Positions 34,554 through 59,998 of a stretch of DNA of 64,000 bases are shown here, piece by piece. Under the pieces are notes generated by a model. That model was not told the DNA's origin. It made no database searches and saw only the letters and a list, made by a program, of their open reading frames with translations. The DNA comes from Bryoerythrophyllum caledonicum. Lineage: Eukaryota > Streptophyta > Bryopsida > Pottiales > Pottiaceae. Within the stretch, counting starts at the first letter, position 1. Each line of letters opens with the position of its first letter. The stretch lies in the NCBI GenBank assembly GCA_963971425.1, contig OZ020521.1, forward strand, positions 3,784,501 to 3,848,500, given 5' to 3'. Both the position numbers and the translations under genes were made by a program.

Positions 34554-37256
34554 ATGTGTGTTTTTGAAGATACACCCTCGTGGTCGAAAAAATGTCTGAG
34601 AGTTCTGTATTTTCTGGTTAGGTGCAACAAAGAAGTTAGTCTCTGGGAAGAGGTGTGAGCGCAATGAGGGTGGTTGGATCCGTTGCATACCCCACTCATA
34701 GCTTAGATCGGAGACAATAGTGGGCTTTGAGAGTGGCGTTTGTGTTGGGCAGGGGTAGTGAAGGTTAGATCTAAATCTAGCATACGAATTTTGAGAGATC
34801 TGAAGGTAGATCGGAGTGTGGGCTGACCTGAAAGCACTGGGACCTTGTGTTGGAATTTCGATCTAACCTCTTAGAACTCAAATTCGATATACAGGTGCAG
34901 ATCTATTTTGTGTTGGTTGTAACTCCCTAAGCCCACTTAGACTTCTTGTAACTGCTGCCCCGACCGAGAAACCGCTACACATACGATCTGAAGTACACAC
35001 ACAGACCCGTGATAGCAGTAGTTCATGCAGAAGACCGTTTACTAGGACAAACGCGAGATTATCAGAGAGCACAAAGCCAGGAGCGAGCACAAGATCTGGA
35101 GAGAGCAGTCAACCAGCAACGAAAACGAGATTTCAAGTCAAGACGAGCGCAAGAGAGTGCCACCAAGTCGCAAAGCGGACGAGAAGAAGACGATGATCAG
35201 GAACGATCAGACGACCTGAAGTGCATCCAAGCTCTGCAACAAACATCAGTCACAAAGGAGCACGCCAACATTACGAAATCAAGCAGCCAGCACTCCACCT
35301 CTGGAGTGCCCAGGTTCAATCTGACCTTACTCCATTTCATTTGATTTGTTGCATGTTTATTAGTGTTTGATTTGATTGCACATTACAGTACATCAGAGAT
35401 ACAAAGAGATCTGCACAGCACCTACACACTAGTAGATCCCTTGGACATCTTACACATCACCACACACACCAGATGTAGAACACTACAGACCCACTATAAC
35501 AACACACACATTAAGCTCCACACTAGAATTCTAATAGTACACGCCATTAAGCTAGTGTATGCAGATCACACGCGGAAGCGCTCGCAAAATCCGCCAGATC
35601 TGGAACAACCTACGCAGCAGAAGAAGATAAACACACCATCAGTACCAAAAAAATCGACATCAGAACGTGAAGATGCATGAACACAACGTAACAGCTAACA
35701 ATTCCGCACCAACTCCACCCACATCAAGATCGCAGCAAGATTTCATAACAAGGGTACAACAACACAAGGTGACAACCACATCAAGACTACATAAGACGTG
35801 AATGCAGCAGCAGAGAGCAACCCGCAGCAACACCATACCATAGAACCCACGTCAACACAACAACAAGAAGAGACCCATGTCAACACAAAAAACAACAACC
35901 CACGTCAATAATACAACACATCAAGAACATACAGTAACCTACAAACCTCCTTTTTCAAGTTCTTCTTACTATACTCCTCCTTCTATGCCTTCCACCCACA
36001 AGACCTCGTCCCACCCCCTCCTCTATCTCTGCAGCCCCCTCCTTCCTCCCCTCTCACTTGCTCCAACCCCACCAATTGCCCTCCCTTCCCCTTCTTCCCT
36101 ATCGCTCCCCACCCCTCTCGATTGTACCCCTCCCCTCCCAACCCCAGACAACCTCTCTCCCGAACTGGACCTCGCCCCTCCCTTCCCGACTCCCTGTCTA
36201 AATCACTCCCCTCCCTTCCTGACCCCTCGACTACACCTCACCCCTCCCTTCCCGACTCATACTGTACCGACTCCTGCTGTCCCGACCTATATTGCCCCAA
36301 TCCATACTGTCCCTACCTTCTCCACCCGTACTGTCCCGACTCATACAATCCCAACCTATACTATCCCGACCCATACTGTCCCTCCCTCCTGGATCCCTTG
36401 ACTGCACCTCGCTCCTCCCTACCCGACTCAGACTGCCCTGACTCATACAGTCCCGACCCATACTGTCCCGACCCACATGGTCCCTCCCTCCCTGATCCCT
36501 CGACTGCATCGCGCCCCTCCCTCCCCGACTCATACTGTCCCGACCCATACCATCCTTCTCCCGAACCCTACAGGCCTTCCTCCGACTCCTACTGTCCCTC
36601 CCTCGACTCCCAGTATCTCTCTCCCGACTCCTACTACCCCTCTCCAGACTCTTACTCTCCCTGTCTCGACTCACAATACTCCCCTCCCCCCACAACCAAA
36701 CTCCCATCCCCTCCAGACTGCCACTGTCCCTCCCTTCTCCAGGCTAAAACCCCCCTGGACTCCCCGAATCCCTGCTTGCGCGCCCCAGAACTTGGCGCTG
36801 CGACCTCCTACACCCAGGCTGTGATCCCCGAAAGAGAAACTACGACCCCCAAAAAAGAACTTGCGACCCCTGAAAGTGAAGTTGCGACCCCCCAACTCCA
36901 AGTTGCGACCTCCCTCTCTAGTCGAGAGACCCCCCCACAAGCTAGCAATCCTTCTCCCTCTCATAGCGACCTCCCTCCCTCCAGTAGAAGCCTACCCTCT
37001 CATACACAGAAACCCCATTCCCTCCCATAACAACACAACTTCCTCCAACACCGACTCAGCAAGCCAGGTAAGTTACTCTACCCTTACTACTTACGTTTTT
37101 CAATTATATTTCTTACAACTAATAAAAACAATAAAAACCCTAACTAATTGCACTAGAGTCAAAAAAATCCAGTACTCCAAACTAAAATCAAAATACATAA
37201 AACCTAGTGTAGAACATCCTAACTTGCCAAAACAAGTGTATGAGCACAGCATAGAT
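34554..37256 (+). other. 5' leader/promoter region of LINE L1
   Basis: No recognisable protein domain. It shares recurring words with the L2 leader (40539-42230): a GTATTTTCTGGTTAGG-like block near the start, CACGCGGAAGCGCT (35571 and 41478), and many TGCGACC words (36795-36915 in L1, 41880-42225 in L2). CAGGTAAGT-type sequences near 37067 and 37690 match perfect 5' splice donors, so the leader may be spliced. Long frames in it are repeat-driven. Confidence 0.55.
36240..36680 (+). repeat. 15-bp pyrimidine-rich minisatellite in the L1 leader
   Basis: Units like CCCGACTCATACTGT recur about every 15 bp with changes. Because 15 is a multiple of three, the plus strand reads as a degenerate pentapeptide repeat (PDSYC, PDPYC, PDSYS) inside an open frame of 302 codons at 36122-37030. 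Tandem monomers in LINE leaders often act as promoters; coding is possible but unsupported. Confidence 0.7.
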
Positions 37257-38911
37257 ATGGAACAATGGGGCAGCAGACGAATACTAATGTATGGTGACGA
37301 CATGGAGATTGAAGCAACCGGGGAAAATCTTAAGCGACACCCAAGTATTGCCTCCACAACGAGCCAAGATGGAGTATCCCCCTCAAGCAAGAAAAAGAAG
37401 AGCTCCAATGAGGAAGGTACGGTGCTCACATTTGAACCCGATGGCCCCCCTTCAAGTTTTGGTTGGGATTTCAAGTAATGGAAGATATGGCAAAGGAAGA
37501 GGGTCTTAAGCCACTAATCAATGATGAGTCCATACCCGATATTATAACAAGAGGAGTCAAAGAAATAGAGGCCAAAGAGATCACCCTAGCAACCCCGGCA
37601 TTCCCATGAATTCCTCAAACCCTCTACCGGTGCGCAAGGAAGGAGGCGGTTGGACAACACTACAACATAACCCAGATACCATTCGACATCCAGGTAAGTG
37701 AAACTACCGGACTTGCCCTTGATTTCCACGTGTCCATACACTTTGAGGTAGGCAATCTTGTCCTCATGCATGATGATGTCAAAACCATGGTAATTGATAG
37801 GCTAAAATTCATGAAAATTGAAGTAGGTAATGAGATTATTGACCCTATCTCCATCCTTTGCAAGAGTTTGAAAAATGCAGGAAAGAAGGGGGTTTGGGCG
37901 GGTGCAATCAAATTGCACCTTCTCAAGCCCGAGGTTGATGGCATAGGTCTCCTCAAAGGTCTTAGACCTTTCATCCTCAAGCTAGACAAACAATATGTGA
38001 TAGGAAAAGTATGTAAGAGTTATCATGCCATTGCAAGGAACTCTAATCTTTCCACAAAAATTAAAAGTGAGTCTCTCAAGGGTATTTCCGCCAACTCTCT
38101 CTTTGTAGACATTCTTCGCAATAGTTTTAACTGTGGGCTTGAGTTTGAAGTAACTAGTGTGCAGAAAGGAAAAGATGAGAGTCATGCATTTATCATTGCA
38201 CCAACTCCACAACCAGCGGCGAAGATTAAGCTACACCAAATTGCTACCAACCGCGAGATGCTCCAACCAACGGGCAATACAGGAGAATCCTTAAGTGGCA
38301 ATATACGGGAGAGTAAGGCAAAGAAGGATGCCATTACCCTAACTCTAACTCAACTGCCTATTCGTATGAATGTTGAAGACACTAGGGCTGAAATTTATAA
38401 TGTTATGGGATTGGGTAACATAAACCACATTTGGTTCCACCGTGACAATGGACATAGACACAATGGAAGTGCCAATGTCCATTGTGCTAATGCTATAATA
38501 TATAGGAAGTTTGTGGGCAAGGTTATCAAGCTAGATGGGCACTATGTGGATTTTGCTCCACATCGGAGAAGCCTTGATGGAATCGAGCCTCCTACCAAGG
38601 AGCAAGTTGAAGAATTTGGCTTCGCGGACGTTAACAAAGCCATTGTTAACACCGTGGAGGCCTTCAAAATGGAGGAGACATTTAAGAACATCACGAAGAA
38701 CGACATCCTTGCCATAGTGCAGACCGCGGTGGAAGAAAGCAACAAGAAAATGCGATTGGAAACACAAGCTTGTGCGGACAAGAAGAGTGAAGAATTGAAG
38801 ACCCAAATGCTTAGCATTCAACACACGATGAGTGCAACCCTTGCATCATTGCAAGCACTAACCGAAGCCATGAGTACACCAAGAATTGAAGATGGACCGC
38901 CAAAAATGTGA
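37257..38911 (+). pseudogene. LINE ORF1 protein (RNA-binding type), near-intact
   Basis: The likely start is ATG 37257 (MEQWGSRRILMYGDD). The frame closes at a TAA that overlaps an ATG (TAATG, 37476-37480) and continues in the next frame through a TGA at 37607-37609, then stays open to TGA 38909-38911. The protein would be about 550 residues. The acidic/basic N-terminus has SSKKKKSSNEE. The middle has DRLKFMKIEVGNEIIDPISI. From about 38330 the blocks ITLTLTQLPIRMNVED, then SANVHCANAIIYRKFVGKVI and HYVDFAPHRRSLDG could be an RRM-like fold. The C-terminus (about 38590-38880) is a predicted coiled coil ending in Gln/Ser/Thr-rich sequence. By analogy ORF1 proteins bind element RNA; no family match beyond that. 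L2 lacks this ORF entirely. Confidence 0.6.
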
Positions 38912-40211
38912 AGAATGAAGACCGCAAGGAAAAAGGTATTATATACATACCAATACATGTTATAAACAAGATATACATACTTTGGAATTGCAATATCTAT
39001 ACACAATACGAATTAATATACATGGTAGTATACAAGATAGTACTCCTAGTATTCTACATAGTATTATCCACCGTATATATAGTGATATACACAATAGAAT
39101 ACATTGTAGAAAACATATTAGCATACATAGACACGTATCCCACAGAGTATACGCTATACAGTCTACGTATGGTATACCCTGATTGTATTGAAACAAAAAA
39201 TAAATACAAATACTATACCAAATACTATGTATACAATACTTACACAAATACAAATACATATATATGTACTATATTGGACAAAAATACAGACATTCATACA
39301 AATACGAATACAAGTATCAGCACCAGTATAAATACTGAAATACATACTAATACAAACATAAAAACCAACACTAATATAAATCCCAACATAAAAACTAACA
39401 CAAATACATATAAAAATAAATCAAATATTCCCCCAAATACCAACATAAAACCATATACAAATATTCTTACACACAATAATCACACGTACACAAGGCCAAA
39501 CACAACCACAAAAACAAACAAACAAACATACATGCACTTGTACATCATTAATAAAATAAAAACAACTACGCAAAACAACACATGGACAAATAAAAAATTT
39601 AAGATAAACACATTTACATTCACAACAAAATGTGTTAATAACAAGAAATTCATTTCACACATACAAAATATAAACATCCAAGACCTTCATAACATAATAA
39701 AGCCCCAAAGAATTACAAAAAACGTAGAAACGTTAAAATACAATGCCAAACATACATATAACAAACCCCATACGAATACAAGTATCAACACCAGTATAAA
39801 TATTGAAATACATACTAATACAAACATAAAAAAAGACACTAGTATAAATCCCAACATAAATACTAATACAACTACATATAAAAACAAATTAAATACCCCC
39901 TTAAATACCAACATAAACCCATATACAAATATTCTTTTACACAATAATCACACGCACACAAGACCAAACACAACCACAAAAATACACAAACAAACATACA
40001 CACACCTATACATAATTAATAAAACAAAAACCACTACGCAAATCAACACATGGACACATAAAAAGTTAAAGATAAATACAATCACATTCACAACAAAATG
40101 TATTAATAACAAGAAAGTCATTTCACACATGCAAAATACAAACGTCCAATTCCCCTCAAACAAACAAGACCTTCAGAACATAACAAAGCCTCAAAGAACT
40201 AAAAAAAAAAT
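38912..40211 (+). repeat. Asn/Thr-rich open repeat region upstream of the 2A motif
   Basis: An open frame runs through this A/C-rich stretch to a TAA at 40222-40224 (about 435 codons, no ATG at its head). From 39304 it consists of two near-identical 468-bp units (39304-39771, 39772-about 40239); 468 is 156 codons, so the duplication keeps frame. Each unit encodes NTNTSI, TNTNIK, YIINK and NKKFISH-like words. The unit end (LKYN then K/R, TYNK) is also the sequence leading straight into the 2A motif, but there it lies in the next frame, after an A10 run at 40201-40210. The ancestral frame therefore probably ran through the repeats into the 2A motif. Confidence 0.65.
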
Positions 40212-40214
40212 TAA

Positions 40215-40538
40215 AAAACTCTAAAATACAACGATAAACGTACATATAACAAACTCCTACTACTTTTAGGAGGAGACATAGAAACCAACCCGGGACCCAT
40301 GCCCAACATACTAAAAAGACACCCTACAGCACATAAGAAAAATGCCAAAAAATACTTCATACCTAATACTATAAAATTACAACCGGAATATGGACACATT
40401 GCAAAATCCTTCGCACCTCTCTTAAAATACATACACACACTACACCAAATACACAACACTTCCCACCCAAACATCGCCCAATACATACAACAAAAAAATA
40501 CGCATCCACCACCCCACATTCTATATGCACTAATAATC
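40215..40538 (+). pseudogene. LINE ORF2, 5' part of L1 copy, with intact 2A-like motif
   Basis: After TAA 40212-40214 the frame reads LKYNDKRTYNK, then LLLLLGGDIETNPGP (40254-40298) directly followed by MPNILKRHP. D-I-E-T-N-P-G followed by P is a full match to the 2A ribosome-skipping consensus D-x-E-x-N-P-G-P, preceded by the usual hydrophobic/Gly stretch. The following about 80 residues (AHKKNAKKYFIPNTIKLQPE and onward) match L2 at 44775. The frame is cut at ILYALII by L2, whose target duplication TGCACTAATAATC (40526-40538) is repeated at 52916-52928, where the same frame resumes. Confidence 0.8.
40275..40298 (+). other. 2A-like ribosome-skipping motif (L1)
   Basis: GAC ATA GAA ACC AAC CCG GGA CCC encodes DIETNPGP, followed by Met-Pro. 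2A motifs cause release of the upstream peptide at Gly and restart at Pro without a new start codon. They are known from viruses and from some animal and trypanosome non-LTR retrotransposons at the head of ORF2. The matching position in L2 (44751-44774) reads DIETNPGS. Confidence 0.85.
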
Positions 40539-42430
40539 GGCTCGACATTATCAGAAGGATGACTAGCGAGTGAGCTCCGTATTTCCTGGTGAGGGGAGGA
40601 GGGGACTTAGCCTGTGAGCTGCAAACGACATGCGATAGGAGTTGGTTGGCCCTATTGTGAGCCCTTGTAGTGTGCAGATCAGAGGTGGTATGGTGAGAGT
40701 TGAGGTGCATAGTAGACGTGTTGGATGGCTCAAACACTAGATCTGAGGTGGGGAGTTTGATGATGCCCTAAATAAGTACAGATCTGTGCAAGTTTGTTCT
40801 GAAGCGGGAAACTTAGTGTTGGAGCTAGATCTGTAAACACTTAGTCCACACAGATAATGACCCATCCCAGATCTGGAGTGCTAGGATTCGATCTGTAAAC
40901 CCTCCCATCAAGTCCTCCTTTCCCAAACCTGGGAATCCTAACATCAAGATTGCGAGAAGGTATCACCGAATACTACTGCTACGCAACTCCAAGTCACCAT
41001 TACAGGCTACCCCTCACCCTCCCATCTCGTGCAATTATTTGTTATTAGTATTAGAGTTTACTAACACATTATGTAGGATTGTATACACAACTGTGTACTT
41101 TATTAAGTGGACCAGCTGCGTCAGCATAGCTGATCTCAACAAAGACATCAGATCAGTAGTCTCCAACACGACGCGAAGCAAGTCGCCAACGAACCGGGCC
41201 GCGCTCCAATTATCAGACGTGCACGAGCAGCTTAGCAGATCAACCTCACTAGATCCAGGTAAGTTCCTCAACCACTCCCATTTCCATTCTCGTTCTTGTT
41301 GCAGTAGGAAAGTAACCTCTAGATCACAAATCCTCACCCTTCTCGCATGGAACCCCACGTTCCAAACATTTAGACACAACACTAGTACCAAAACACCTAG
41401 ACAGAACATACCACTTGAAAATAGTTCAAAATACCTCTCTCCTCCTGCACATGCACTACTAGGATTTATCCTTCTCACGCGGAAGCGCTGCCACTTTTTA
41501 TGTAGAAACAATATAGAAAGACGACAAATCTATCAACAAGTAGAAACCCGGAGTACGGAGCAGCAAAAATACGTGCAGATCTGGAAGCGACACAATATAG
41601 ACAGAACCAACATCGAAAGAAACACACGTAGCAGATCACACAAACACACACATAAGTTGCACACCTTCCCCTCCCCACCCAACTCTCTCCACCAGCTCTT
41701 CCCCCCTGCTGTGAACCTCAGCTCGCCCCTCTTTCCCTCCCCCACCTTCCATTCATCACTCATCTCACCTCCGAAACCCTATTACTCTCCCCAACACTCC
41801 TCCCTAAACACGAGAAAACAGAACAACCTCCCTGCGAGCTCTAGACACACTCCGCCCTCCAACAGAGACCTCGCAATAGCCACCACGGACCTTCCCCTTG
41901 TGTCCACTGCCAGCGACCTTCCCCTCAAGGACTGCGACCCTGTCTCTATTGCTAGCGACCCTCCCCTCATGGGCTGCGACCCTGTGCTAACAGACCCTAC
42001 GATCAACACCAACGACCCGAGCTTCCCTTGCGACCTTCCCTTCACAGAGCAAAACCCTCGCCCTCCCATCAACGACCTCCGCAGGGTCGCCAACGACCTC
42101 CCTTTTTTAAAACTACGACCTACCCCCTCTCTAAACCTGCGACCTACTCCCTTTCTAAAACTACGGCCTACTGCGACCTTCCTTAAATTGCGACCTTCTG
42201 CAACATTCCCGACACTGCGACATACAAAGGTACGCACAATTGTACATATATCAGTATATATACTAATACGGATACTAGTATATATATTGGAATCTATACT
42301 GGAACGTACACTGAAACGTATATTGGAACATATACTGATACGTATACTGGTACGTATACTGAAATGTATAACGGCACAAATACTAATACGAACATTATTA
42401 CTATGAAAACCAATTCAAATACTAATACGA
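40539..42430 (+). other. 5' leader of LINE L2 with TGCGACC words and 12-bp array
   Basis: The start (GAGTGAGCTCCGTATTTCCT) resembles the L1 leader start. CACGCGGAAGCGCT at 41478 and repeated TGCGACC/AGCGACC words at 41880-42225 are shared with L1. A CAGGTAAGT donor-like word lies near 41262. From 42232 a 12-bp array (TATACTGGTACG-type) begins and resumes after the solo LTR. An open frame of 455 codons (41039-42406) shows no domain and is probably not a gene. Confidence 0.55.
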
Positions 42431-42433
42431 AGA
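42232..42433 (+). repeat. 12-bp tandem array, left part (continues at 44441-44535)
   Basis: Units such as TATACTGATACG and TATACTGGTACG repeat about a dozen times. The array continues right of the LTR as AATACTGATAGG and AATACCGAGACA units, so the LTR insertion split one array. It takes the place of the longer Asn/Thr repeat region of L1. Confidence 0.7.
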
Positions 42434-44435
42434 TGTAGAGTGATTTTTCACCATTCTAATAAAACACCCAAGTGTACCCACACCTCATAGAATTCGTTAC
42501 GGGGATGATCATACGCCTAGTTTTAAGTAATTGGAGATTAATTGTGTCGTTAAAGCTATCTTTTTAGTTAATTTTTCAGGTTATCTATCTATTTTTAGGA
42601 AATTAGGGCTGTTAGCATCACTCTTAAGGGATCCACAAACAAAGTCTAAATCCCAAGGATCTCTCGTGCCTTAAGACGGAACATTAGTCCTTTTAAGATT
42701 GTGCTTATGCCACTAATCCTTAAACACTTGCCACACTGGGCTAATGGAAGTTTCCATTAAGTCTCATTGCATTGGTTCTTTAATTACAATCTTTAAGAAT
42801 TCAAATTCTTACCTCATGCAAAAACGCTCTACTTTTCACGTCCGTCCACTCGGTCCACGTGATCACGTTCTTAAGTCAATGGTTAGTCTCGAAAATCCCA
42901 TACACAAGTTAACTTAAGTCTTAAGGAGTTTCAGCTCTTAAGTCTCCACTTAAGTTCACTTATCCATACTTAATTCTTTAAGACTACGGTGTTCTACACT
43001 TACTTCTACCGTTTAGTCTTTAAGATCTCTGACTGGTTCTTAAGACTTCCTTCTCGGTCGTCTCCATGTTCTTAAGGACACAGTCTCTGGCCCTTGGTTC
43101 TTAAGCACTCACTTACTCACTTAGGCCTGATTCTTAAGAACCTGCACTGTCTAGACCCATTCAGCCCTACAGCGTTCTTAAGTTTCTGTCTTTAAGACTT
43201 CCAGAACCGGGAGTGCATCTCACTGAATGCAAATATTGTCCTGTATTCTCACCCATACAAACCTTTAAGTCCAAGCCTTTAAACTTAAGGGTCTCCTGGT
43301 ACTTAAGGTCTCAACCTTCATAAGCTTATATATCCAAATTTGGACTTAAGATTCTTAAGTTTCTATATTTTCTTCTTACGTCTTTCTTTGGGATTTGTTC
43401 CTTATTTTCTCTCTTATGATAGATTCTTAAATACTCACAACTTAGCCTACCTTAGAGAATCCCTTCTATTAAGGCTAGACTTAATGCCAATTTTTCGTAT
43501 GCATAATATGACACTCTTGTCATGCATCAAGGTATGCCACTCTTGATGTTTATTGCATAAATTGCATTAACATGAATAAGAACTCCACTCTTGATGTTTA
43601 TTGCATAAATTGCATTAACATGAATAAGAACTCCACTCTTATTCTTATAATACTCAAGTTATGCTCACTCACACTTGAGATCTTCTTAAGTACTTATGCA
43701 TCACACATCTTATGCACTAAGTCACTTAATTTCACATTATCTCCATTAATCTTCACACTCATGATTAATGCTCCAATCACACACACAAGGTCACACCCAC
43801 GACCTTGGTAGTTAGGGTATTTCCCTAAATTATTCCATGAAGAATAAATATATAATGCATTCATGCATAGGAATTTTATCCACAATTAATACCTAATGCA
43901 TGCACTTGCATTTACAACACACAATGTCAAGTTTATTCAATGAAGTTCACATATTATTGCAATTATACATATGACTCAAGTCACAAGACTCTACACATGC
44001 AAATTCAATAGTAATTATATATTCATATATAAAATTAAATACTCTTACAACATTAAGAGTCATCAACTAGCTTCTTCACCTAAAGCTAGGGCTCACTCCA
44101 ATCTTCCTTCAAGGAATTTCTATGGTAATGGCCAAGAATGCTAAAAATTCAAGCTAGTCATTCTACTCAACATCCATGAGGTATAACTCTTGGAAAGAGG
44201 TTTTCCATCTTCACATCTCTTCATATCCATTCATGAAAAGGTACAACATATCCAAAGGGTGCGAGTTCAATCCTTTTCCCATTATTTCCTTATTCTTGGA
44301 TATGAATAGGTATTTTCCACTTAATTAACTACTTAGTGTAAACTTAATCATTAATTTTTTACTTCTTCATATATCTACAACCCTTTTTACACTTAATTTT
44401 TGGAAAAAATCTATTTTTGTCATTTTGGCTCTACA
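42434..44435. mobile_element. solo LTR of an LTR retrotransposon, about 2.0 kb
   Basis: Begins TGTAGAG and ends CTCTACA (TG...CA ends with a 7-bp inverted repeat), flanked by a perfect 5-bp duplication GAAGA (42429-42433 and 44436-44440), the hallmark of an LTR insertion reduced to one LTR. No internal coding part or second LTR is present. The family is not identified. The interior is rich in CTTAAG-type words and has a 48-bp tandem duplication near 43537-43632. It lies inside L2, so it is younger than L2; the perfect duplication suggests modest age. It is a fossil. Confidence 0.8.
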
Positions 44436-44639
44436 GAAGACTAGTACAAATACTGATAGGAATACCTACATAAATATTAATATGAATACCGAGACAAATA
44501 CCATGGAGAATACTGAGGTGCGTACAAATACAAACATATATAAATACTAGTATAAACACAACTACATATACGCACACAAAGACAACCACATATCATCAAC
44601 GAAATACATACATACACACACACATACAAAGACAAATAC

Positions 44640-47600
44640 ATACAAACAAAAAAGCACAAAATAAAATACAAAAGTCACATACAAAAACAAAAAATTCTAA
44701 AACAAAACAAAAAACCCATCTACTACAAACTACTAATACTAATTGGAGGGGACATAGAGACTAACCCAGGATCCATGCCGAACGTATTAAAAAGACACCC
44801 CGCTTTGCACAAAAAGAATGCTAAAACATATTTCATACCAAATACCATAAAACTACAACCCGAATATGAACACATCGCCCAAAAATTTGCCGCCCTCCTA
44901 AAAACCACACACATATTACACCAACAACATAACGACACATACCTATATATTGCCACATATATAAACCAACATAACGAACACCATCCATCCCACATTCTAT
45001 ATGCCCTAGTCATTACTATACACCCCAACATAGACCTCTGCAATCAACTCCCCAATACACAAAACCAAAACATAACCCAATGGACCAATACACTCCTACG
45101 CACTTTACAAAATTTATAAAACCCATCCGAAAGACACATTAGCACCCCACACCCATACACAACATTTCTTGAAACTAACAAAAACACTATAAACCACAAT
45201 ACATCGATAAACAAAGAATTATATGACTTTATACACAACCAAAATACACCCCCATCAAATGATCTGATAAAACAAAAATTCCCATACCTCCCAAACACAA
45301 TCATAAATGAGTCACAAAAATGCCTAAACCTCCTCCCGGAATACACGCACCCCCCCTCCTCCGCCAAACCACATGCCACCACAAAATCAAAACTCACACA
45401 TGAACAACAACACAAACATAATAACATGGAACGCCTCATCCCTCAATACCGCACTCCCAAACTTACAAAACATTATCATGTACACCAATACACCACCAGC
45501 ACTCATAGTTATACAAGAAATAAAAATCTCCGCCACAAAATCCACAAAATACATACAAAGACTTTTTCCCAACTACAAATTTATCTTCAATAATACACAT
45601 GCCCTAACACGATGCATACAACAAAGATGACCATATACACCGGGCCGAGGGGACCTCCTCACTCTCATACACAAAAACTACGCCTTTCCAGGCAACATCA
45701 AAAAAATTCCCACACCGATGAACATATCCCCATACCTCCAAATTTTGGAAATTTCCAATCACCCACTACAATCATGGCTAATCCACCACATATACATGCC
45801 ATTCCATCCCGAAGACATTAGACTTACAGAGGACATCAAAACTAACATCACCACCCATATTTCCAACAATCCCAACCAGAAGCACATCTTATGTGGAGAC
45901 TTCAATAGAGACATTGCCCTCATAGGTAGACAAAACAAAAACCAACACACACCACCACAAATAACAGACCTACAATAGAAACAATTTATAGAAAACCTAA
46001 ACTTTAACTACATACCCACAAACACTACATACTCTAGACAATGGGGATACAACTACACTAACTGGAGCCTAATTGATGGATTCTATGTCCGTGCGACCAA
46101 CCATACCACATTTACTTCCACAACAAATAATAACATTCACCTGAATTCCGATCACTCACCTATACAACTCCACATTCCAAACAACACATTCATAAACCGT
46201 ACACCAACCACCACAAACAATAACCAAATACGTATACTCAATCCTATCCCACAAAACAACATAGAATCATTCAACACAAAATTCTTCAAGGAAAACTCAT
46301 TACAAATTGACTCCCTAATAAACACATTAGACTCTAATAACCATCGCTCCCAAACGCAATAGCAAGAAGCCAGTCATTCTCTAGATATACTCATCAACAA
46401 CATATCCAATACTATTGAACAAACATGCAAAGCCCAACCCATACCACAAATGACAAATCAAACATCACAACAAGGAGGGTATCTACCCCGTAAATTAGCT
46501 AAAACTTGGCAACAACACTTAACCGTATACCACACTATACGGAAAACCATAAGAACTGTAAATAACAACCCCCAATGGCGAAACCACCCCATCCTCAACG
46601 AACTACAAAACCTTCAACACATACAAATCCCTAACCCACCCCCCATACATCTACCACATGACACATGGATAAATAACATAGCACTAATTGCAAAAAACGC
46701 CAATATACAAGCCCGAAAAATCACCACCAAACATACCCAAGAAAACATCCGAAAAGCCATCTCCAAATACAGACAACTATATGAAACTAGCCCCAAGAAA
46801 ATAAACATAAGAATGTTCAGAAATACGGAGTCCCCACCATTAGACTACATCACCGACCAATATAACAATATACTAACTAGCCCAGAAGACATTGCAAACG
46901 AAATATTTAACCAACAAACAAAAAACAACACACCTACGATAAACACATGTAACTATCAACCAGACTACCACACTACATGCACATGCGCAGTACGACAATA
47001 TCCATGGCATGACCTAGATGGATTCACATTAGAAAAAAGAGGTGACCCGGAAACCCCACTATACACATACTTTAACCAAGCCACATATGACACTTGCCTA
47101 CGTAACCTAGGAAATAATAAGGCCCCAGGACCGGACCGCATACCGAACTCTATCATAAAAAATATGCCCCCAAGATTCCACAAACTACTAAACCTCTTTT
47201 TCTCCCACTACTATAAACAAAAACAAATCCCTACTTCATGGAAAACAAGTGCAACAATCCTACTATACAAAAAAGGAGACCCATCCATGCTACCGAACCA
47301 TAGACCTATTGCATTAGCCAATACCATCTACAAACTATTTACGAGCACACTCACATCAATACTATCATCATATGGAGAAAAACATAAAATATTGCATGAT
47401 AGCCAAGAGGGGTTCCGCGCAGAAAGAAGCACTGCTAGATAAATCCAAACAATAATAGCTGCATTAGAAGATGCACGATTTACAAACCAAGACATATTTA
47501 TACTATATGTTGACTTTAAAAATGCCTTCGGCTCTATTGACCATGCTAGACTTTTAGCCATAATGACGGACCTTGGATACCCCAAAGATGCCACCGCACT

Positions 47601-50600
47601 AGTGGGAAATAAATACTCCGAATCCTCAACCGTCTACATAGGAGAACACTTCGGTAAAACTAAACCCATAGCCATCCGAAGGGGAACAATACAAGGAGAC
47701 ACCCTAAGCCCATATTTATTCATTATATTCCTAGAACCACTACTTAGATGGCTAGATAGAGGCAACAATGGATAGACATTTGGGACATCACAAACCACCA
47801 TCAACTCCACGGCATACGCAGATGACCTTGCGGCCATAACCAACAAAATCAACGACATAAAAATACAACTCAACAAAATAGACAGGTACTGCAAATGGAT
47901 AGGTATGGATGTAGGGGTGGGCTATTCGCAAACTACTTATATCATCAACCAAATCCCGGTGTTTCATTCTTATGAATGCCGGAACCTTTAATGACAACCC
48001 ACAAGAAAATACGGTCCCTCCTTGGCTGTTACCCTGCACCTGTCATACTCAAAGATGCCACTGTAATGCAAGATTTAAACCGGACCTATTATGTGTTAAA
48101 GGACTTTCATACAAAGACCCCCCACCAAACCACATAGACCCTAGTCTCACTATCCAATTTATTGAATTCACATATTGCAATGATAGATTCTCTCCAGACA
48201 CCATCTCAAATAAAACAAACAAATACCAACCACTACTTGACGATATTCATGCACTAGGATGGAAAGTAGACCCCATCATTGTCATCACCGCGGGTGCTAG
48301 AGCCACCACCTACATCCCTTCAATGACAACTCTTGAAGAAACCTTTAAAATCCCCATCACTTCAATCAAAACCACCTTCTCAAATATCAACACTATTGCA
48401 ATCCAACATGCTATGTCGATACTCCTACATAAACGTAAACTTGAAAACAAACAACCCCTTCCGGACGCCTTAAACCCCCTCCATAGATCTACAATTTCAT
48501 TTTTTGCACTTCACCATACTTACCCTCCCTCTTCTAAGACTCTCTGGGACCTTGGGTCCTTTGGTATCGGTTACTTGTTACTGGGTACATAGTGTCGACC
48601 CTCGAAAGGGGGAAGTAGTTCCATACTACTAACCCATGCCCAGTGGGCATGGACTTAGGGGTGGAATGAACGGACACTTTACTCACGCCGGCCCCCTTCG
48701 GGGACCGGAGTTCTTCTTCTTGGATGTAGGGGTCCCAAAATGTGCCGTCACTGGATGCCCAAATAAATCAAAAACGAACCCCACCACATTCAAAGCCCTA
48801 ATACAAACCTCTAACATTAATTACCAAAATCAACAAATACCCGTACTACACCAAAACGAACCATACACATATCTAGGAATAAGTCTCGTCCCCTCCCTAA
48901 AATGGAAAACCCAAATCCATGCCACCACCACAAAACTAATCAAACAATGCAAAGAACTAGTAGCTTGCCCGGCCACTATGAAACAAAAAATAAAGATGAT
49001 CGACACAGTTTTAAGACCGGGTGTCGCATATAGCTTCTCCGCGGTACCATACTCAATGCCCGCCATAAAAAAACTGGACCAAAAAATAACTGCCACACAA
49101 AAAACCGTATGCGGCATGCCAAAATGTATGTCTAATATAATAATCCAACTACCACACAACCTCTATGGACTAGAAGCCTTCTCACTAAAAAACGCATACC
49201 TTAGATGCATAGGAGAACAACTCCAGAACGCTCTAAATGACAGTGGCAGACTTGGGAAAATATACAGGGGTCTATCACATCACATCCTTGCCTAATATGG
49301 GGGGGCCGAAAACATACCTAGAATAAAAAAGACAAACTGTACAAGATCACCAATAACACGTACCTTCTTTTTACTAAAACATGTAGCAAAAGTCCACCTA
49401 AAAAGTACTCTCTCCAACTTTCTTATAGAACCAACATCACTAGAAAAAGCTTGGACCCATGAAACACAAAATCATAACACACTCAACACACAATTATCTC
49501 AAAAGTTATTACAAAAACTCCTATCAAAAAACATATACGAACTAAAACAAATCTCCCTACCTAACGGAACACACATCATGAACAATGAAGAATTCAAAAC
49601 CTACAACTTCACCCCATCAAAACTAATTAAAAGTGCCCTCAAAATCGCACAACAACTCTTTTGCCACCCAATATACCCCCCACCCAATACCCAGGCCAAT
49701 ACACATATATATTCCCATACACTTAGAGACCCATTCATCACTATAAACAACAACATCACCCCAAGAAACACCCCCCTACAATTGATACACCCTCCCCACT
49801 CCCACCCACACCACCCCCACCCCCCAAACCACATCCTTAAAAACCCCACCACATATCCCATTAACAACATTATACACCACGAATACAAGGAAAAAATAGA
49901 TAAAAACCAAATCGAAAACAATTACACTAGATATCTATGCCAATGGACTCACAATAACTACACCTACAACAAATCGCTACCCCAAAGAAACCTCTTCCCA
50001 AGACACAACCAAAATACCATTACACATAATACAAATATATTGACACAATACTATCAAAAAATTCAACACAAATTTTACACCAAAATTATCCGAGCTCACC
50101 ACCCACAAAACCAACCCCAAGACACAAGATCCGTCACCCCACCCACAATAATCCCCCTACTAAACATTTACATACCGGAATGTAACCCTGAAAACGACAT
50201 TCTCACCTCATCTAACACAATTAAAATTGACAAAGACCAAGCACACTTATATGAAGAAGATGGACGACACCTCTTCACCATCCCAATCACTAGGCTCACA
50301 TGGTTATGGAATCAATACAACACTAAACTACAAACCCCCACAAACATTGAACCAACAACCCAACCATTTGAAACCGAAGTCATATGGCTATACCAAAGAT
50401 ACAAATATAGAATACCAAAAAATAACCCCCTTAAACTTACACAATATACTCTACCCATACCCATACTAAACTCATTAATCTCAACATTCAACATCCAACA
50501 CTCATACTTCTCTTCCCCCGTCACATGCCCCACCAAACTCAACAAATTTTACTCCCCCTTTGAAAGAGATAAAATATTCGGATCACTAGGTAAAGCTTTT

Positions 50601-52785
50601 GACCACAAATGGATAGGCAATGGTATGGCCCATCCCCACAATGAAGAAGAAACACAACAAGCACTACATTGGGCCCGCCTCGCGGCCAAACATGATCCAA
50701 ACCACACCTCCACCCTAATCATAACCCCCGACAAAAAATGGTATCAAAATTCTAATCCACACTTGGGCCCCTTCCCTAACACACACATCATTGTACTATT
50801 CGAAGCGGACTCAATAACATACAAAGAACCCACTATCCCACCTGAATAAAATAAACCTAGGCTTGAACCAACTACACTACAAATACTATGTGTCCATCAC
50901 CAAAACAAAACAATGGGAACCTTAGAGCAACTCACCACACTCACATCCATAGCCAAAAATCTAAACATAAACCGAGTATACACAAAAATATGCCCGGCCA
51001 CATCTCCCCAAACTTCAGTCAATCGCAGCAAAAAATGGTCTAAACTAGAATACAATAACAACACACCAAACTATCGCGTGACAAATCCCCCCTCCCTAAT
51101 TACCACACACACACACACACCCAAAATATGACCCCATACATAGTTACTACATAGATGGATCCTTCAAAGAACCAACAGAAATCAGCCCGGGACATTGGCA
51201 TAGAGAAAAAACTGGATATGGCATATACAACCCCAATAAAGAAATCAAATTTGCCAAAAGACTCCATGGACTTCAAAACATCCTTAGAGCAGAGATGATG
51301 GCCATACATAAAACACTCCAAATCATCAACACAAAATATACCAACAAACCCGCACATATTTTTACGGATTGCATCAATGTCATCTATTTACTAAACACAC
51401 AAATAACACACCCCACTCTCCACAATAACCACCCCGACAAAATAACATTCATGTCCATGGTACAAATGCTCCAAAATCGAACACAACCTACTACACTCCA
51501 TAAAGTTAGAGCCCACGCCAATATAGAAGGAAATGAACAAGCCAATAAACTTGCCAAAGAAGGAAGAGAAAAATCACATAAAAACGCCAAAGACCCACAT
51601 GAACATGCACATGCCACCCCATACTACTTCCAAAAAGAGGATTGGCCCTCCAAAGATGACACCCCGGACAAAGGCCCGGTCCAATTTTTAGGAAAATACC
51701 TCAAAAAACAAGACACATACAATGACATTGACACGATCTCCGAAAACTTCCCTAACATAGAAAAATGGACAGGCAACAACAACATAGACGATGAACTATC
51801 TACAAATTTCTGGAAAAATCCCACCATTACCGATTCACAAATTACATGCCTTATTAAATTCCGCACTGGTCAATACATGGGGAATGCCCGTAAACAACTC
51901 TTCTTTGGAATTGAACGCTTCCCATCCATAACATGCCCCATATGTACATCTACAGACCCCGACACATGGCTACACGTTTTACTCAAATGCCAAAACCACC
52001 ACATACACTCCCTCATCGTTAAAAGACACAACAATGCAGTATGGGAAATCCGAAAACTAATTACCTCACATAACAAATCCCGATGTTTCATACTCATGAA
52101 TGCCGGTACTTTCAATGACAATCCACAAGAGAATACGGTCCCACCTTGGCTACTCCAATACACATGTGCAACCCAACGATGCCACTGTAATGCCAGATTC
52201 AAACCCGACATACTATGCGTAAAAGGCCTACCTCACAACGACCCGCCACCCATCCATATTGATCCAAACTATACCATTCAATTTATTGAATTCACGTATT
52301 GTAATGACAGATTCTCACCAGAAACAATTGAAAACAAAATAAACAAATATCAACCCCTCATCGACGACATCAGCAACCTTGGATGGAAAATTGACCCCTT
52401 CATGGTCATCACGGCTGGTGCCCGTGCCACAACCTACATCCCATCCATGAACACCCTTGAGGAAACCTTCAAAATACCCATAAACACAATTAAACATACC
52501 TTCAATAATATAAACACCATTACAATCCAACATGCTATGTCCATTTTATTATATAAAAGAAAAATTGAGAATAACCAAACCCTCCCCGATCCACACAACA
52601 CACCATTAAACACCCCAATTCTCCCACCGCCCACTCATCCCTCGTCCTCCACCCCCCCCCGGTCCTTACCCCCTTCCTTGTCTTTTCTTTTCTTTTTCTT
52701 CCTTTTTCTCTTCTCCCCATTCCCTTGTTATGATTGTGGCTTTCTTTTGCTTTGGTTTTCATTCCTACGGTCACTTGTTACATAG
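44640..52785 (+). pseudogene. LINE ORF2 of L2 (2A-like, APE, RT, unassigned module, RNase H, CCHC, RLE-like)
   Basis: The frame enters from an open Lys/Gln/Asn-rich stretch into LLILIGGDIETNPGS (2A-like, last Pro changed to Ser) and MPNVLKRHPALHKK. APE about 45415-46190: WNASSL, IQE, LCGDFNRD, SDHSPIQLHI. RT about 47080-47900 and beyond 48734: HRPIALANTIYK, YVDFKNAFGSIDH (47508-47545), GTIQGDTLSPYLF, YADDL (about 47812). An unassigned module lies at about 50540-50790. RNase H about 51140-51590: IDGSF, LRAEMMA, FTDCIN, GNEQANKLA (the last Asp is Asn here). Zinc knuckle CPIC-x8-H-x3-C near 51937; RLE-like domain about 52195-52440. Stops lie at 45117, 45628, 45976, 46360, 47440, 47773, 49293, 50847 and 51129, plus frameshifts such as near 45370. 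The last frame runs on into a Pro/Phe-rich tail to 52785. Confidence 0.85.
47919..48720 (+). mobile_element. 5'-truncated LINE copy L3, nested in L2
   Basis: An 802-bp copy of the family's 3' end, inserted into the RT domain of L2. A perfect 13-bp duplication TGGATGTAGGGGT lies at 47906-47918 and 48721-48733, and removing L3 rejoins the L2 reading (MDVGV then PKCAV). It holds an uninterrupted C-terminal ORF2 segment (47972-48592) covering the RLE-like domain, then a complete 3' tail with a CTTCGG hairpin and TTCTTCTTCT end. It is among the youngest LINE insertions in the window. Confidence 0.92.
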
Positions 52786-52915
52786 TGTCTACCCTCGAGA
52801 GGGGGAAGTAGCCCCATACTACTAATTCCTTGCTTGGTGAGCATGGTCTTAGTGGTGGTGCGAACAGACACTTTATTCACGCCGGTCCGTCCGGGACCGG
52901 CGTTCTTCTTCTTCT
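52786..52915 (+). other. conserved LINE 3' tail (L2) with GC hairpin
   Basis: Conserved in all copies (compare 48588-48720 and 59862-59998): ACATAGTGTCTACCCTCGAG, then GAAGTAG, a CATGGTCTTAGTGG block, ACAGACACTTTATTCACG, then an 8-bp stem GCCGGTCC/GGACCGGC and GTTCTTCTTCTTC. Stem bases covary between copies and the loop is UUCG-like in L3 and SINE 1. It is probably the RT recognition structure used to start reverse transcription. Confidence 0.8.
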
Positions 52916-52928: not shown

Positions 52929-55900
52929 ACTACTCATCCAAACATAGATGAATGTAACCATCTTCTAAATCCACAAAATTTGAACACAATTACATGGACC
53001 AATACACTTCTACAAACTTTACTAAACTTACAAAACCCACTAGAACGACACATTTACACTCCACACCCTTATACTAAATTCCTGGTAGAAAACCAAAATA
53101 TTATAAACCATGAAAACTCAATGCATAAAAGACTATATGACTTCTTACATAGTCAAGACATACCACCCTCAAATGATACAATAAAACTAAAATTCCCTTA
53201 TCTCCCCAACAACCTCATAAATGAATCACTAAAATGCCTAGACCCTATACCAGAATACACCCACCCACCCCCACCTCTTCCCTACATCCCTCTTCAAAAT
53301 CATCACATTAGAACAAACCAAGAAAATACATACATAATCACATGGAATGCCTCCTCACTAAACACTGCCCTTCCTAGCTTACAAACTTTAGTCACAAACA
53401 CAGACACACCACCAGCCCTCATAGCTATTCAAGAAACAAAACTAACCACCACAAAATCTACAAAATATTTACAAAATTTATTTCAAAATTATAAACTCAT
53501 CTTTATCAATACACATACACTTACAAGATGCATGCAACAACGGAGACCATACACTCCGGGCCGCGGTGGCCTCCTTACATTAATACACAAAAAACATACA
53601 TTTCCAGGCAACATCAACAAAATCCCTATCCCAATGCACATATCACCATACATTCAAATAATTAAAATCACTAATCACCCACTACAACCATGGTTAATCT
53701 TTCACATGTATATGCCATCCCATCCCGAAGATACTAGATTTCTCTTAGATATACAAAACACTATTACATCCCAAATTAATAATAATCCCAATCATACATA
53801 CTTATTATGTGGAGACTTCAACAGAGACATAGCGCTAATTGGTCGCCAAAATGGAAACCGTCATACTCCCCCTCAAAACATTAATTGCCAATGGCGTCGC
53901 TTCACAGAAAACTTAAACTTCACTTACATCAATACTAATACACAATTCTCTAGACAAGGTGGCTATAATTATAGTGATTGGAGTCTAATAGATGGATTCT
54001 ATATAAATACAAACAACAATACACAATACATCTCCACAACAAACAAAGATATTATTCTCAACTCGGACCACTCACCCGTACAACTGCACATCCCAAATAA
54101 CACACTAATTAACAGAACTCCTATAATCCTAAACACGGACATTATACGCATACTCAACCCCATCCCAAAAACCAACATAGAAAAATTCAACACAAAATTC
54201 TTCGAAGAAAACTCCATACAAATAGACTCCCTCACAAGCACTCTTGAAAATAATAGTCAATTAACACAAGCACAATGGCAAGAGGCATGCCACACCGTAG
54301 ACAAACTCATCAATAAAATCTCTGATACACTAGAACAAACCTGCAGAGCACACCCAATACATCAAACGACAAATAGAACTTCTCAACAAGGCGGGTACCT
54401 ACCCCGCAAACTCTCTAAAACTTGGAAACAACACTTAACCACATACCATACCATACGTAAAACCATTAGAATTGTAAAAAACAACCCTCAATGGCGTAAC
54501 CATTCCATATACAATGAACTTCTAAATATTCAACACATCCAAATCCCTACCCCGCCGCCTCTGGACCTTCCCCACGATACATGGATAAAAGACATCGCGC
54601 TAATTGCAAAAAATGCCAACATACAAGGCCGGAAAGTAATTACAAAATTCAACAAAGAAAACATTAAAAAAGCCATCTCAAAATATAGACAACTATACGA
54701 AATCAGCCCAAAAAAAATTAACAAAAAAGTCTTTAAAAACCTTGAATCCCCACCAATGGACTATATCAGAGACCAATATAATAATATTTTAACTAGCCCC
54801 GAAGACATTGCGAATGAAATATTTAACCAACAAACAAAAATCAATAGACCAACAGTACCAACATGCAATTACCAGCCACAACATACAATAGAATGTACAT
54901 GTGCAGTACGCCAATACCCATGGCATGACCTGGACGGCTATACCCTTGACAAACGGGGCGAACCAGAAATTCCACTTCACAAATACCTCAACAGAGTCAC
55001 ATACGACACATGCCTTCAAAATCTTGGTAATAAAAAAGCCTCAGACCTAGACCGCATACCGAACTCAGTACTCAAAAACATGCCTCCAAGATTTCATAAA
55101 CTATTATTCCTATTCTTCTCCCATTGCTATAAACAAAAACAAATACCAAATTCATGGAAATCGAGTACAACAATCTTATTATACAAGAAAGGCAATCCGT
55201 CCATTCTACCCAATCATAGACCAATTGCACTAGCTAACACAATATATAAACTCTTTACCAGTACACTCACCTCCATACTATCCTCATATGGCGAAAAATT
55301 CAAAATCCTACATGATAGTCAAGAAGGATTTAGAGCAAAGAGAAGTACTCCACGACAAATACAAACTATAATAGCCGCACTAGAAGACGCAAAATTTACT
55401 AACCAGGATATATACATATTATATGTGGACTTCAAAAATGCCTTTAGCTAAATTGACCATGCCCGACTTCTAGCAACAATGACGGACCTTGGTTACCCAA
55501 AAGAGGCAACTACACTTGTTGGAAACATATACTCTCAATCATCTACTTGCTACGCCGGGGAACACTTTGGAAAAACAAAACCTATATCCATCCAAAGAGG
55601 AACTATACAAGGGGACACCCTCAGCCCATACCTATTCATTATATTTTTAGAACCACTACTTAGATGGCTAGAAAGAGGCAATAACGGATATACTTTCGGC
55701 ACATCACAAGTCACAATAAACTCCGCCGCATACGCGGATGACCTAGCCACCATAACTAACAAAATCAAATCAATCCAAATACAACTCCATAAAATTGATA
55801 GATATTGTAAATGGGCTGGCATGGATGTGGGAGTCCCAAAATGTGCCGCTACCAGATGCCCAAACAAATCTAAAGTGAATCCTACCACTTTCAAAGCCCT

Positions 55901-58900
55901 AATGCAAACCGCTAACATCAACTACCGCAACCAACCAATCCCTATACTACACCAAAACGAACCATACATATACCTCGGTACAAATCTTGTTCCCTCACTA
56001 AAATGGAAAATTCAAATTCACACTACAACCACAAAGCTTATCAAACAATGCAAAGAACTAACAACATGTCCGGCCACCATGAAACAAAAAATAAAAATGG
56101 TTGATACCGTACTACGCCCAGGTGTCGCATACAATTTTTATGGTGTACCATACTCTATGCCAGCCATCAAAAAACTTGATAAATAAATAATCGCCATACA
56201 AAAAACCATATGTGGATTACCAAAATGTATGTCAAACGCAATAACACAACTCCCACATAAGCTATTTGGACTTGAAGCTTTCTCCCTAAAAAACGCATAT
56301 CTCCGATGTATAGGCGAACAACTACAAAATGCCTTAAACGATAAAGGTAGACTTGGAAAAATTTATAATGGGTTGACTCATTACATCCTTGCCCAATACG
56401 GTGGCGCCGAAAACATACCCAGAATTAAAAAAAGCGACTATATAAGATCACCAATAACATGTACATTCTTCTTATTAAAACATATAGCTAAAGCCCACCT
56501 TAAAAGCACACTCCCAAAATTCCTCACTAACCATACAACACTTGAAATACTATGGCGGCAAGAAACACTAAACCACAACACACTCAATGCCCAACTCTCC
56601 CAAAAGCTCCTACAAAAACTCCTCTCAAAAAATATTTTTGAACTAATCCAAATTACTCTACCTAACGGCACACACATCATGAACTATGAAAACTTCAAAA
56701 TCTACCACTTCACCCCAACCAAACTATTGAAAAGTGCCTTAAATGTTGCTAAACAACTATTTTGCCACCCAACATGCCCCACCACATGTCATACTTCTTG
56801 TAATATACACCCATACTCGCATATACTTAAGGATCCATTCATCACCCTCAACAATAATATCATCCCAAGAAATATTCCCACACCAATCAATCCCCCTAAC
56901 GCCACACATACATACCATCCCCGCCCTCCAACACACATTCCCCAAAACCCTACCACGTATCCCATTAACAACATCATACACCATAAGCATATCCAACACA
57001 TGGACACAAACAACATACAAAACACCTACACAAAATATCTATGCCAATGGCAATACAATGATAACACATACAATAAATGGCTCCCCCAAAGAGACCTATT
57101 TCCAAGACACGACACCAATACCTCCACACATATCACCGAAAAATTAAAACAATACTACCAAAAAATCCAAAACAAAACATACTCAGATATCATCCAAGCC
57201 CACTATCCACAAGAACAACTTTCAGACTCAAGATCTGTAACACCACCCATAATTATTCCACTCTTAAAACATTTACACAACAGAATGCAACCCTCAAAAA
57301 GATATCCTTACATCCTCAAACACAATTCTAATAAATAACAATCAAGCACATCTATATGAAGAAAATGGCCGACACTTACACACCATCTCCATTACTAGAC
57401 TCCAATGGTTATGGAATCAATACAATACAAAATTGAAAACCCCCACAAACATCGAACCAAGGACCCAATCCTTTGAAACCGAACTAATCTGGTTATACCA
57501 AAGGTATAAATACCGAATACCAAAAACTGACCCCCTAAAAAATGCATAATATACAATACCCACTCCCATTTTAGATTCACTAATCTCATCCTTTAACATT
57601 GAACAATCATATTTTTCTTCCCCGATCACATGTTCTACCAAACTTAAAAAATTCTACTCACCTTATGAAAGAGACAAAATATTCGGATCCCTAGGAAAGG
57701 CCTTTGACTATAAATGGATTGGCAATGGTATAGCTCACCCCCACAACGAGATAGATATGGAACAAGCAATACATTGGGCTCGACTTGCCGCCAAACAAAA
57801 CCCAAATAACACTAATACAATCATCATCACACCGAACAACAACTGGTACCAAAACAACAATCCACACTCAAACCCATTTCCAGATTCCCATATCATTACA
57901 TTATTCAAAGCAGACACAATACCATACGAAGAACCCACTATTCCACCCGAGCTCAAAAAACCCCAATTCAACCATCTACATTACAAATACTATGCGTCCA
58001 TCATCAAAATCAAACCCTTGGCTCCCTCGAACAAATTGCCGAACTCACCTCCATAACAGACAATCCAGACATACAAAGACCCTGCACAAAACTGGCCCCA
58101 CCAACACCTACACAAACCCTTGTAAAAAAAAGTAAAAACTGGTCAAAACTAAATTATATCAACAATACAATAAACTACTCCGTCACACCTCCCCCTCTTC
58201 CAAACTACCCAACTCATACCACACCAAAATTTAACCCCGCACACAGCTATTACATTGATGGCTCCTTTAAACCACCCGAACAAATTAGCCCGGGCTCCTC
58301 GCGCTGAGAAAAAGCTGGATATGGCATATACAACTCTACCAAGGGAATTAAACTAGCCAAAAGACTCCATGGACTACAAAATATACTCAGAGCAGAACTC
58401 ATGACCATTCACAAAACACTACAAATCATCACAACAAAATGCAAAAATGAACCCGCACATATATTCACCGATTGTATAAATGCACTCTACCTACTAAACA
58501 CTCAAATAACACACCCTACCCTTCATAATAGCCACCCCGACAAAATCATATTAACATCAATGGTCCAGATGTTACAAAACCGTACACATATCACAACCCT
58601 CCATAAAGTGAGAGCCCATGCCAACATTGATGGCAACGAACAAGCAGACATATTAGCTAAAGAAGGCCGAGAAAAAACACACAAAAATGCCAAAGACCCA
58701 CACGAGCATGCTCATGCGACCCCATACTACTTTCAAAAAGAAGAATGGCCTTCCAAAGAAGATACCCCTGACAAAGGCCTTATTAGATTTTTGGGCAAAT
58801 ATCTCAAAAAACAAGACCTCTACAACAACCTTGATACAATCTCAGAAAACATTCCTAACATAGAAAAATGGACTAGCAATAACGACATAGACAATGAACT

Positions 58901-59711
58901 CTCTACAAATTTTTGGAAAAACCCCAGCATCTCAGACTCGCAATTAACATGCCTCATCAAATTCCGTATTGGGCAATATATGGGAAACGCTCGCAAACAA
59001 CTCTTCTTTGGAATAGAAAGATTCCCATCCATAACATGCCCCATATGCCCCTCAACGGACCCCGACACATGGCTTCATGTTCTACTCAAATGCCAAAACT
59101 ACCACATACACTCTCTAATTGTTAAAAGACATAGTAAAGCAGTGTGGGAAGTCCGAAAATTAATCACCTCCTACAATAAATCGAGATGTTTTATACTAAT
59201 GAACGCCGACAATTTTAATAACAATCCACAAGAAAATACGGTCCCCCCTTGGCTACTCCCATGCTCATGTATGTCCCAAAGATGTCATTGCAACGCGCGG
59301 CTCAAACCGGACATCCTTTGTGTTAAAGGTTTACCATATAATGACCCACCACCCGTTAACATCAACCAAGACTACACCATTCAATTCATTGAATTCACAT
59401 ACTGCAACGATAGATTTTCCTCGGAAACAATCCAAAATAAAATAGATAAATACCAACCCCTTATTGACGACATCATTGCCCTCGGATGGAATGTTGACCC
59501 CCTTATTGTAATCACATCCGGCGCTCGTGCCACCACCTTTATCCCATCTATGAAAACTCTAGAAGATACCTTCAAGATACCCATTGAAACAATTAAAACC
59601 TCCTTTAAAAACATTAACACCATAGCTATCCAACATGCCATGTCCATTCTTCTACATAAACGCAAAATCGAAAACAACCAAGCCCTCCCCGAAACACAGG
59701 ACCCCCCTTAA
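52929..59711 (+). pseudogene. LINE ORF2 of L1, main part: APE, RT, unassigned module, RNase H, CCHC, RLE-like
   Basis: Resumes the frame cut at 40538. APE about 53325-54110: WNASSL at 53342, IQETKL, LCGDFNRD, SLIDGF, NSDHSPVQLHI. RT about 55000-55950: LYKKGNPS, NHRPIALANTIYK, SQEGFRA, YVDFKNAF, GTIQGDTLSPYLF, YADDLATI. Next comes a conserved stretch of unknown role with FGSLGKAFDYKWIGNG and AIHWARLAA (about 57680-57920). RNase H about 58248-58680: YYIDGSF, LRAELM, FTDCIN, and GNEQADILAKEG with all acidic residues kept. CPICPSTDPDTWLHVLLKC is a CCHC-type knuckle (about 59038-59095). The C-terminal domain KPDILCVKG, then IQFIEFTYCND and NKIDKYQPLIDDI, looks like a PD-(D/E)XK nuclease. Disabling changes: TAA 55449-55451 inside RT motif A, TAA 56184-56186, a frameshift near 57290, TAA 57547, a frameshift near 57960-58020, TGA 58304-58306. 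It ends at TAA 59709-59711. Confidence 0.87.
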
Positions 59712-59998
59712 ATTCCTCCTCCTCCGCCTTGATTTAGCATGACTAGTTGGTTTTGAGGTCTTTGACTACTTGCTTGGTTTGTCGTTGGTTCGTTGGCTAG
59801 TTGCTTGATTAGTAATTCGCTCGTTGGTTGGTTGGTTGTGTGATTCTTTAGCTACTTGTTACATAGTGTCTATCCTCCAGAGAGGGAAGTAGTTCCAGCT
59901 TACTAATTCCTTGTCCAGTGGACATGGTCTTAGTAGTGGAACAAACAGATACTTTATTGACGCCGGCCTCTTTCGGAGACCGGCGTTCTTCTTCTACT
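59712..59998 (+). other. 3' UTR and conserved tail of LINE L1
   Basis: A TTGGTTG/CTTGCT-rich 3' UTR (59740-59860) unlike that of L2, then the conserved tail from ACATAGTGTCTATCCTCCAG through the CGCCGG...CCGGCG hairpin and TTCTTCTTCT end. Confidence 0.75.

Follow-up and report, generated by a model that had tools for sequence, protein, structure and literature searches.

Long interspersed nuclear elements (LINEs) encode, in their second open reading frame (ORF2), a protein that nicks DNA and primes reverse transcription at the nick; the question raised here is whether a single element in a moss encodes two endonucleases of different kinds. The locus lies in a 64,000-nucleotide (nt) stretch of the Bryoerythrophyllum caledonicum genome (contig OZ020521.1, positions 3,784,501 to 3,848,500; hereafter the window, to which all positions refer), where an initial annotation placed a giant LINE with an apurinic/apyrimidinic-type endonuclease (APE) at one end of ORF2 and a restriction-like endonuclease (RLE) at the other. 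We conclude that this is very probably a Dualen/RandI-like non-long terminal repeat (non-LTR) retrotransposon with an ORF1 and a giant ORF2. What defines the Dualen/RandI group, also described in PMC8226300, is a non-LTR element that carries APE as well as RLE (PMC4640811); the moss element has both, together with an RNase H.

The evidence begins with the anatomy of ORF2. In copy B, the 3′ part of the outermost of three nested insertions (Table 1), the domain order is APE, reverse transcriptase (RT), PCIF1_WW, RNase H, zinc knuckle, and a C-terminal block. The Exo_endo_phos match to the APE scores 24.5 bits, exactly the curated cut-off, and PF14529 matches the same domain below its cut-off (1.3e-4). 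The motifs GDFN, SDH, YADD, CPIC...H...C, and KPDILCVKG...IQFIEFTYCND...KYQPLIDDI can be read directly, and with the domain matches they bear out the inventory first proposed for ORF2 (APE, RT, RNase H, CCHC knuckle, and C-terminal block). As was also claimed, the C-terminal block is conserved in all three window copies, including a truncated one (71-78% DNA identity); in 14 aligned sequences it is 55-94% identical to the window's own. Its fold is that of a zinc knuckle plus RLE, as in R2, while Pfam and sequence-only PDB searches of the C-terminus returned no endonuclease match. A chromodomain considered at the YLCQW...NKW block was rejected, with one weak match (E 0.061) and no occurrence among the families listed for 34 members at E 0.1.

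Intact relatives are present elsewhere in the genome. Protein searches of the 437-Mb genome returned at least 91 matches to the RNase H-RLE part (10,353 first-look candidates) and at least 85 to the PCIF1-containing part of copy A, a nested older relative (7,222 candidates). Five of the 91 matches, picked for long open frames, were retrieved (copies C2, C7a, C7b, C8, and C4), and all have an uninterrupted ORF2 (3,454, 3,503, 3,520, 3,606, and 3,757 amino acids [aa]). Eighteen short motifs from the APE, RT, RNase H, zinc knuckle, RLE, and PCIF1-like regions, written from one of the five copies, are all present in every one of them. Duplications of 12-13 bp flank four of the five (one match overlaps the TTC tail), and none was found around the fifth; calculated from the duplication positions, full elements measure ~14.6-15.8 kb.

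Both endonucleases are under purifying selection. Between copy A and intact C2, dN/dS was 0.047 in the RT, 0.051 in the knuckle region, 0.066 in the RLE, 0.069 in RNase H, 0.108 in both the APE and the PCIF1-like domain, and 0.13-0.21 in linkers, values that are rough because dS (1.1-1.6) is near saturation. Copy B against C2 gave 0.063 for the RLE, 0.107 for RNase H, 0.123 for the RT, 0.131 for the PCIF1-like domain, and 0.227 for the APE; among young copies, which differ by few changes, the ranges were 0.03-0.07 (RLE), 0.05-0.18 (RT), 0.13-0.29 (APE), and 0.20-0.38 (PCIF1-like). The RLE is thus as constrained as the RT or RNase H, and weaker constraint acts on the PCIF1-like domain and APE.

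It is possible, if short of probable, that both endonucleases are encoded and only one still cuts, with the APE nicking and the RLE only binding, or the reverse. The PD-to-E spacing of the RLE is 26 residues, longer than the 12-14 residues of R2, and no shared target sequence is apparent among seven duplications, unlike most RLE elements (PMC4640811); both points would favour this reading. However, all five intact copies retain catalytic-type residues in the APE and the RLE alike, and the low dN/dS of both also argues against the loss of either activity.

Between the RT and RNase H lies a further domain that the initial annotation missed, as it did the 2A motif and the structured 3′ end described below. 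This domain matches PF12237 above the cut-off, and CAPAM ranks first in its structural comparison, which used a predicted model of low confidence. The same profile matches 91 of the 120 RT relatives listed, 82 of which also match RLE. However, NPP(F/Y/W) occurs at the catalytic position in none of 109 relatives; N-P is retained in 28 of 89 wider relatives, and His replaces the catalytic Asn in all 20 moss-lineage relatives with letters at that position. We call the domain PCIF1-like, not PCIF1, because the NPPF motif is absent. It further differs from PCIF1/CAPAM in being embedded in a LINE polyprotein, and Pfam scans of the element pieces and relatives scanned found no WW domain.

An active adenine methylase working on the element's mRNA cap or cDNA appears improbable. 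While the structural ranking, the purifying selection between copy A and C2, and the N-P pair of some wider relatives would fit such an enzyme, the His substitution in the moss lineage counts against it, as do two points in PMC10544176: replacement of Asn 553 and Phe 556 was used to inactivate PCIF1, and a catalytic-dead Pcif1 is reported for Drosophila. With its catalytic motif altered, the domain more likely binds the RNA of the element, at the capped 5′ end or elsewhere, than performs standard adenosine methylation, although our confidence in such a role is low. Tentatively, a CAPAM/PCIF1-type cap-adenosine methyltransferase might have entered the Dualen group early, in an ancestral element, and have persisted with a remodelled active site as part of the retrotransposition enzyme. 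There, beside two endonucleases of different origin, it would act on the RNA of the element itself, at the capped 5′ end or at adenosines. SymbioLINE-Dnmt is likewise a LINE with an acquired methyltransferase under purifying selection, but its enzyme, as described in PMC5890265, is a cytosine C5 methylase of an unrelated family, carried in ORF1. Among the open-licence papers listed, none describes a retrotransposon with a PCIF1 domain, judged by titles and the starts of abstracts, and an earlier mention is possible.

The Dualen-like interpretation made initially is supported overall, and phylogenetic analysis of the RT is consistent with it. The best PDB match of the moss RT is an R2 protein (116 bits; L1, 83-85; silkworm R2, 59-63), and for each of the 118 Dualen-like RTs compared, that of the moss included, the better-scoring of two R2s outscores L1. 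In a quick tree of 44 RTs, which contains 38 of these 118 (moss included) and no RTE, I, CR1, Jockey, or authentic Dualen sequences, the moss element falls within the Dualen-like group (support 99), alongside APE/RLE elements from green algae and metagenomes, Haematococcus and Pleodorina among them; R2 (100) and L1 (96) stay outside. Long branches were flagged at L1 and at one pseudoscorpion row, as was an unusual composition in four rows, including that of the moss element. The relation to plant L1 was tested directly, and the moss RT does not fall within L1, two moss L1s included. R2, which is not known to carry APE or RNase H, shares the C-terminal zinc knuckle and RLE fold with the moss element, but its RT is on a separate branch. 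An ordinary APE-type LINE of the I or L1 group, with a usual knuckle plus lineage-specific sequence at its C-terminus and no second endonuclease, is very improbable, even though sequence searches alone did not detect a C-terminal endonuclease, C..C...H...C knuckles are common in APE-type LINEs, and the tree omits I, CR1, Jockey, and RTE.

The Dualen family of Chlamydomonas carries a cysteine protease, and the Josephin domains of many algal relatives are in line with this. No Pfam match to a cysteine protease was found in three ORF1s, one ORF2 N-terminal part, or the window pieces, and such a protease is not part of the group's definition as given in PMC4640811. The moss element, then, shares with Dualen/RandI of Chlamydomonas the joint presence of APE and RLE (PMC4640811) and an RNase H, and differs in its moss host, PCIF1-like domain, length of ~14.6-15.8 kb, 2A motif, and the lack of a detected Josephin-like protease. 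Precomputed Pfam annotation also places PHD fingers, Josephin, Ulp1, OTU, or C5 DNA methylase domains in Dualen-like ORF2 relatives, which we regard as a modular family.

The locus itself (34550-59998) consists of three LINE insertions, nested one inside another. The 10-bp TACCATGTAG duplication came from a comparison of 500 with 85 bases and alone is not beyond chance; its two halves, however, fall precisely at the 3′ end of the outer element and no more than 4 bp from the start given initially, which bears out the proposed limits of 34554..59998. Without the nested piece, the outer element spans 5,989 + 7,070 bp (~13.06 kb), in agreement with the ~13 kb first estimated. The two long copies described at that time do contain the APE, RT, RNase H, knuckle, and C-terminal motifs, but they are actually one element split by another. 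Copy B is ~91% and copy A ~75-77% identical to intact genomic copies elsewhere. Both are broken by in-frame stops or frameshifts, with several breaks in copy A and an in-frame stop within the RT of copy B (55449-55451). Across 38001-60000, the coding strand has a strong C-over-G and mostly A-over-T bias (GC skew -0.17 to -0.51 per 2 kb), and the encoded proteins are therefore rich in Thr, Asn, Pro, and His.

The conserved part of the outer element's ORF1 (37243-38911) is 75% identical in amino acids to ORF1 of C7b. No Pfam or PDB relative of ORF1 was found (three ORF1s were searched against Pfam). Among the four retrieved copies with an open ORF1, these proteins are only 34-69% identical, whereas the last 8-9 kb of retrieved copies are 94-98% identical to each other. 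ORF1 thus differs far more between copies than ORF2 does. Either lineages swap ORF1 modules or these modules change extremely fast; a swap through template switching appears the better fit. ORF2 follows with a short frame overlap and no clear start codon, and its N-terminal region in the five retrieved copies (~8300-9060 of the joined loci) holds a variable number of ~123-nt (41-aa) in-frame repeats. A DIETNPGP-type 2A motif occurs at the corresponding place in all five, as does a second, degenerate 2A-like motif upstream; a third (ELEINPGP) is present in two, and copy A carries NPGS at the 2A site. 2A-bearing APE-type LINEs are not known to carry RLE or PCIF1. They share with the moss element the consensus D(V/I)ExNPGP within a LINE ORF (PMC4981915), and 16 of 150 relatives also contain the exact consensus.

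The 128 nt that precede the (TTC)n tail form a structured RNA: the folding z-score is -7.7 for C2 and between -3.5 and -5.0 for the window copies. Seven of 45 predicted pairs show compensatory change across nine copies, six of which are closely related; Rfam gave no match at gathering score in 34000-61000. Two copies of a short interspersed nuclear element (SINE), 85.7% alike over 321 nt, have a tRNA-like head and share this 3′ end together with its (TTC)n tail. That of the first is 70.6% like the LINE's over 136 nt (E 3.7e-10), and that of the second also aligns, with a weak score alone. An A-box match is at the expected place in the first copy only, ARAGORN found no tRNA gene in the SINE head, and the two decayed SINE tails fold no better than shuffles. 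Sharing of this kind usually marks a SINE that relies on the reverse transcriptase of a LINE, as may be the case here. A 70-nt piece of the LINE 3′ end (84%) at 29120-29189 (+), around which no duplication was found, is possibly a very short 5′-truncated insertion.

Table 1. Positions of the nested LINE insertions, their domains, and related SINEs in the window
Feature	Position	Strand	Details
Outer element, left target-site duplication	34540-34549	.	TACCATGTAG
Outer element, 5′ part	34550-40538	+	5′ region, ORF1, start of ORF2
Direct repeat, ORF2 N-terminal region	39279-40046	+	two 300-nt units, 87% alike
2A/StopGo motif in ORF2	40275-40298	+	DIETNPGP
Copy A (nested older relative)	40539-52915	+	13-bp duplications TGCACTAATAATC at 40526 and 52916
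Third copy, nested in copy A	47919-48720	+	5′-truncated, RLE + 3′ end; 13-bp duplications TGGATGTAGGGGT at 47906 and 48721
Structured 3′ RNA, counterparts	52780-52905 and 48587-48713	+	
PCIF1-like domain, copy A	50331-50735	+	PF12237 4.5e-11, 43.1 bits (cut-off 31.1)
RNase H, copy A	51202-51567	+	9.7e-11
Zinc knuckle + RLE, copy A	51802-52608	+	
Copy B (3′ part of outer element)	52929-59998	+	
APE, copy B	53337-54080	+	PF03372 (Exo_endo_phos) 2.7e-5
RT, copy B	54900-56186 (start approximate)	+	RVT_1 8.6e-15; broken by in-frame stop
PCIF1-like domain, copy B (matched part)	57556-57840	+	PF12237 8.7e-9, 35.6 bits
RNase H, copy B	58311-58670	+	9.7e-10
Zinc knuckle + RLE, copy B	58905-59708	+	
Structured 3′ RNA, copy B	59861-59988	+	followed by (TTC)n tail
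Outer element, right target-site duplication	59999-60008	.	TACCATGTAG
SINE, first copy	25877-26212	-	A- and B-box-like head, LINE-like 3′ tail, 9-bp duplication
SINE, second copy	62628-62966	-	B-box-like head, 12-bp duplication

Outside the nest, a TPX2-domain exon (22282-23790) has its best match among 19 proteins in Ceratodon purpureus (69%), with further named ones in Physcomitrium patens, which identifies the host as a moss. An inverted repeat (11952-12521 and 15570-16139; 570 nt, 98% complementary, 3,048 nt apart) may represent a DNA transposon or an inverted duplication of recent origin.

As a Dualen/RandI-like retrotransposon, the moss element encodes an ORF1 protein with no recognised fold as well as the giant ORF2. 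At the 2A site the ribosome probably releases the repetitive N-terminal piece (~1,260 aa in C2), so that the remaining ~2,340 aa would form a separate enzyme in which APE, RT, PCIF1-like domain, RNase H, zinc knuckle, and RLE follow one another. This enzyme would recognise the ~128-nt structured 3′ RNA with its UUC-repeat tail, and occasionally a SINE mimicking that RNA. It would then nick the target and reverse transcribe there (target-primed reverse transcription), producing 10-13 bp duplications and 5′ truncations. The APE and RLE may share the two nicks, and the PCIF1-like domain may bind RNA, perhaps at the cap.

The mix of two kinds of DNA cutter with a cap-methylase-like domain could reveal how elements of this kind altered their cutting machinery and how they handle their own RNA. 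This moss family has many near-identical copies with intact ORFs, and selection acts on both of its endonucleases; it thereby makes the role of each nuclease testable, and the SINE that shares its structured 3′ end offers a natural reporter for template recognition. The recurrence of the CAPAM-like domain in most of the relatives listed points to an unrecognised step in the treatment of LINE RNA.
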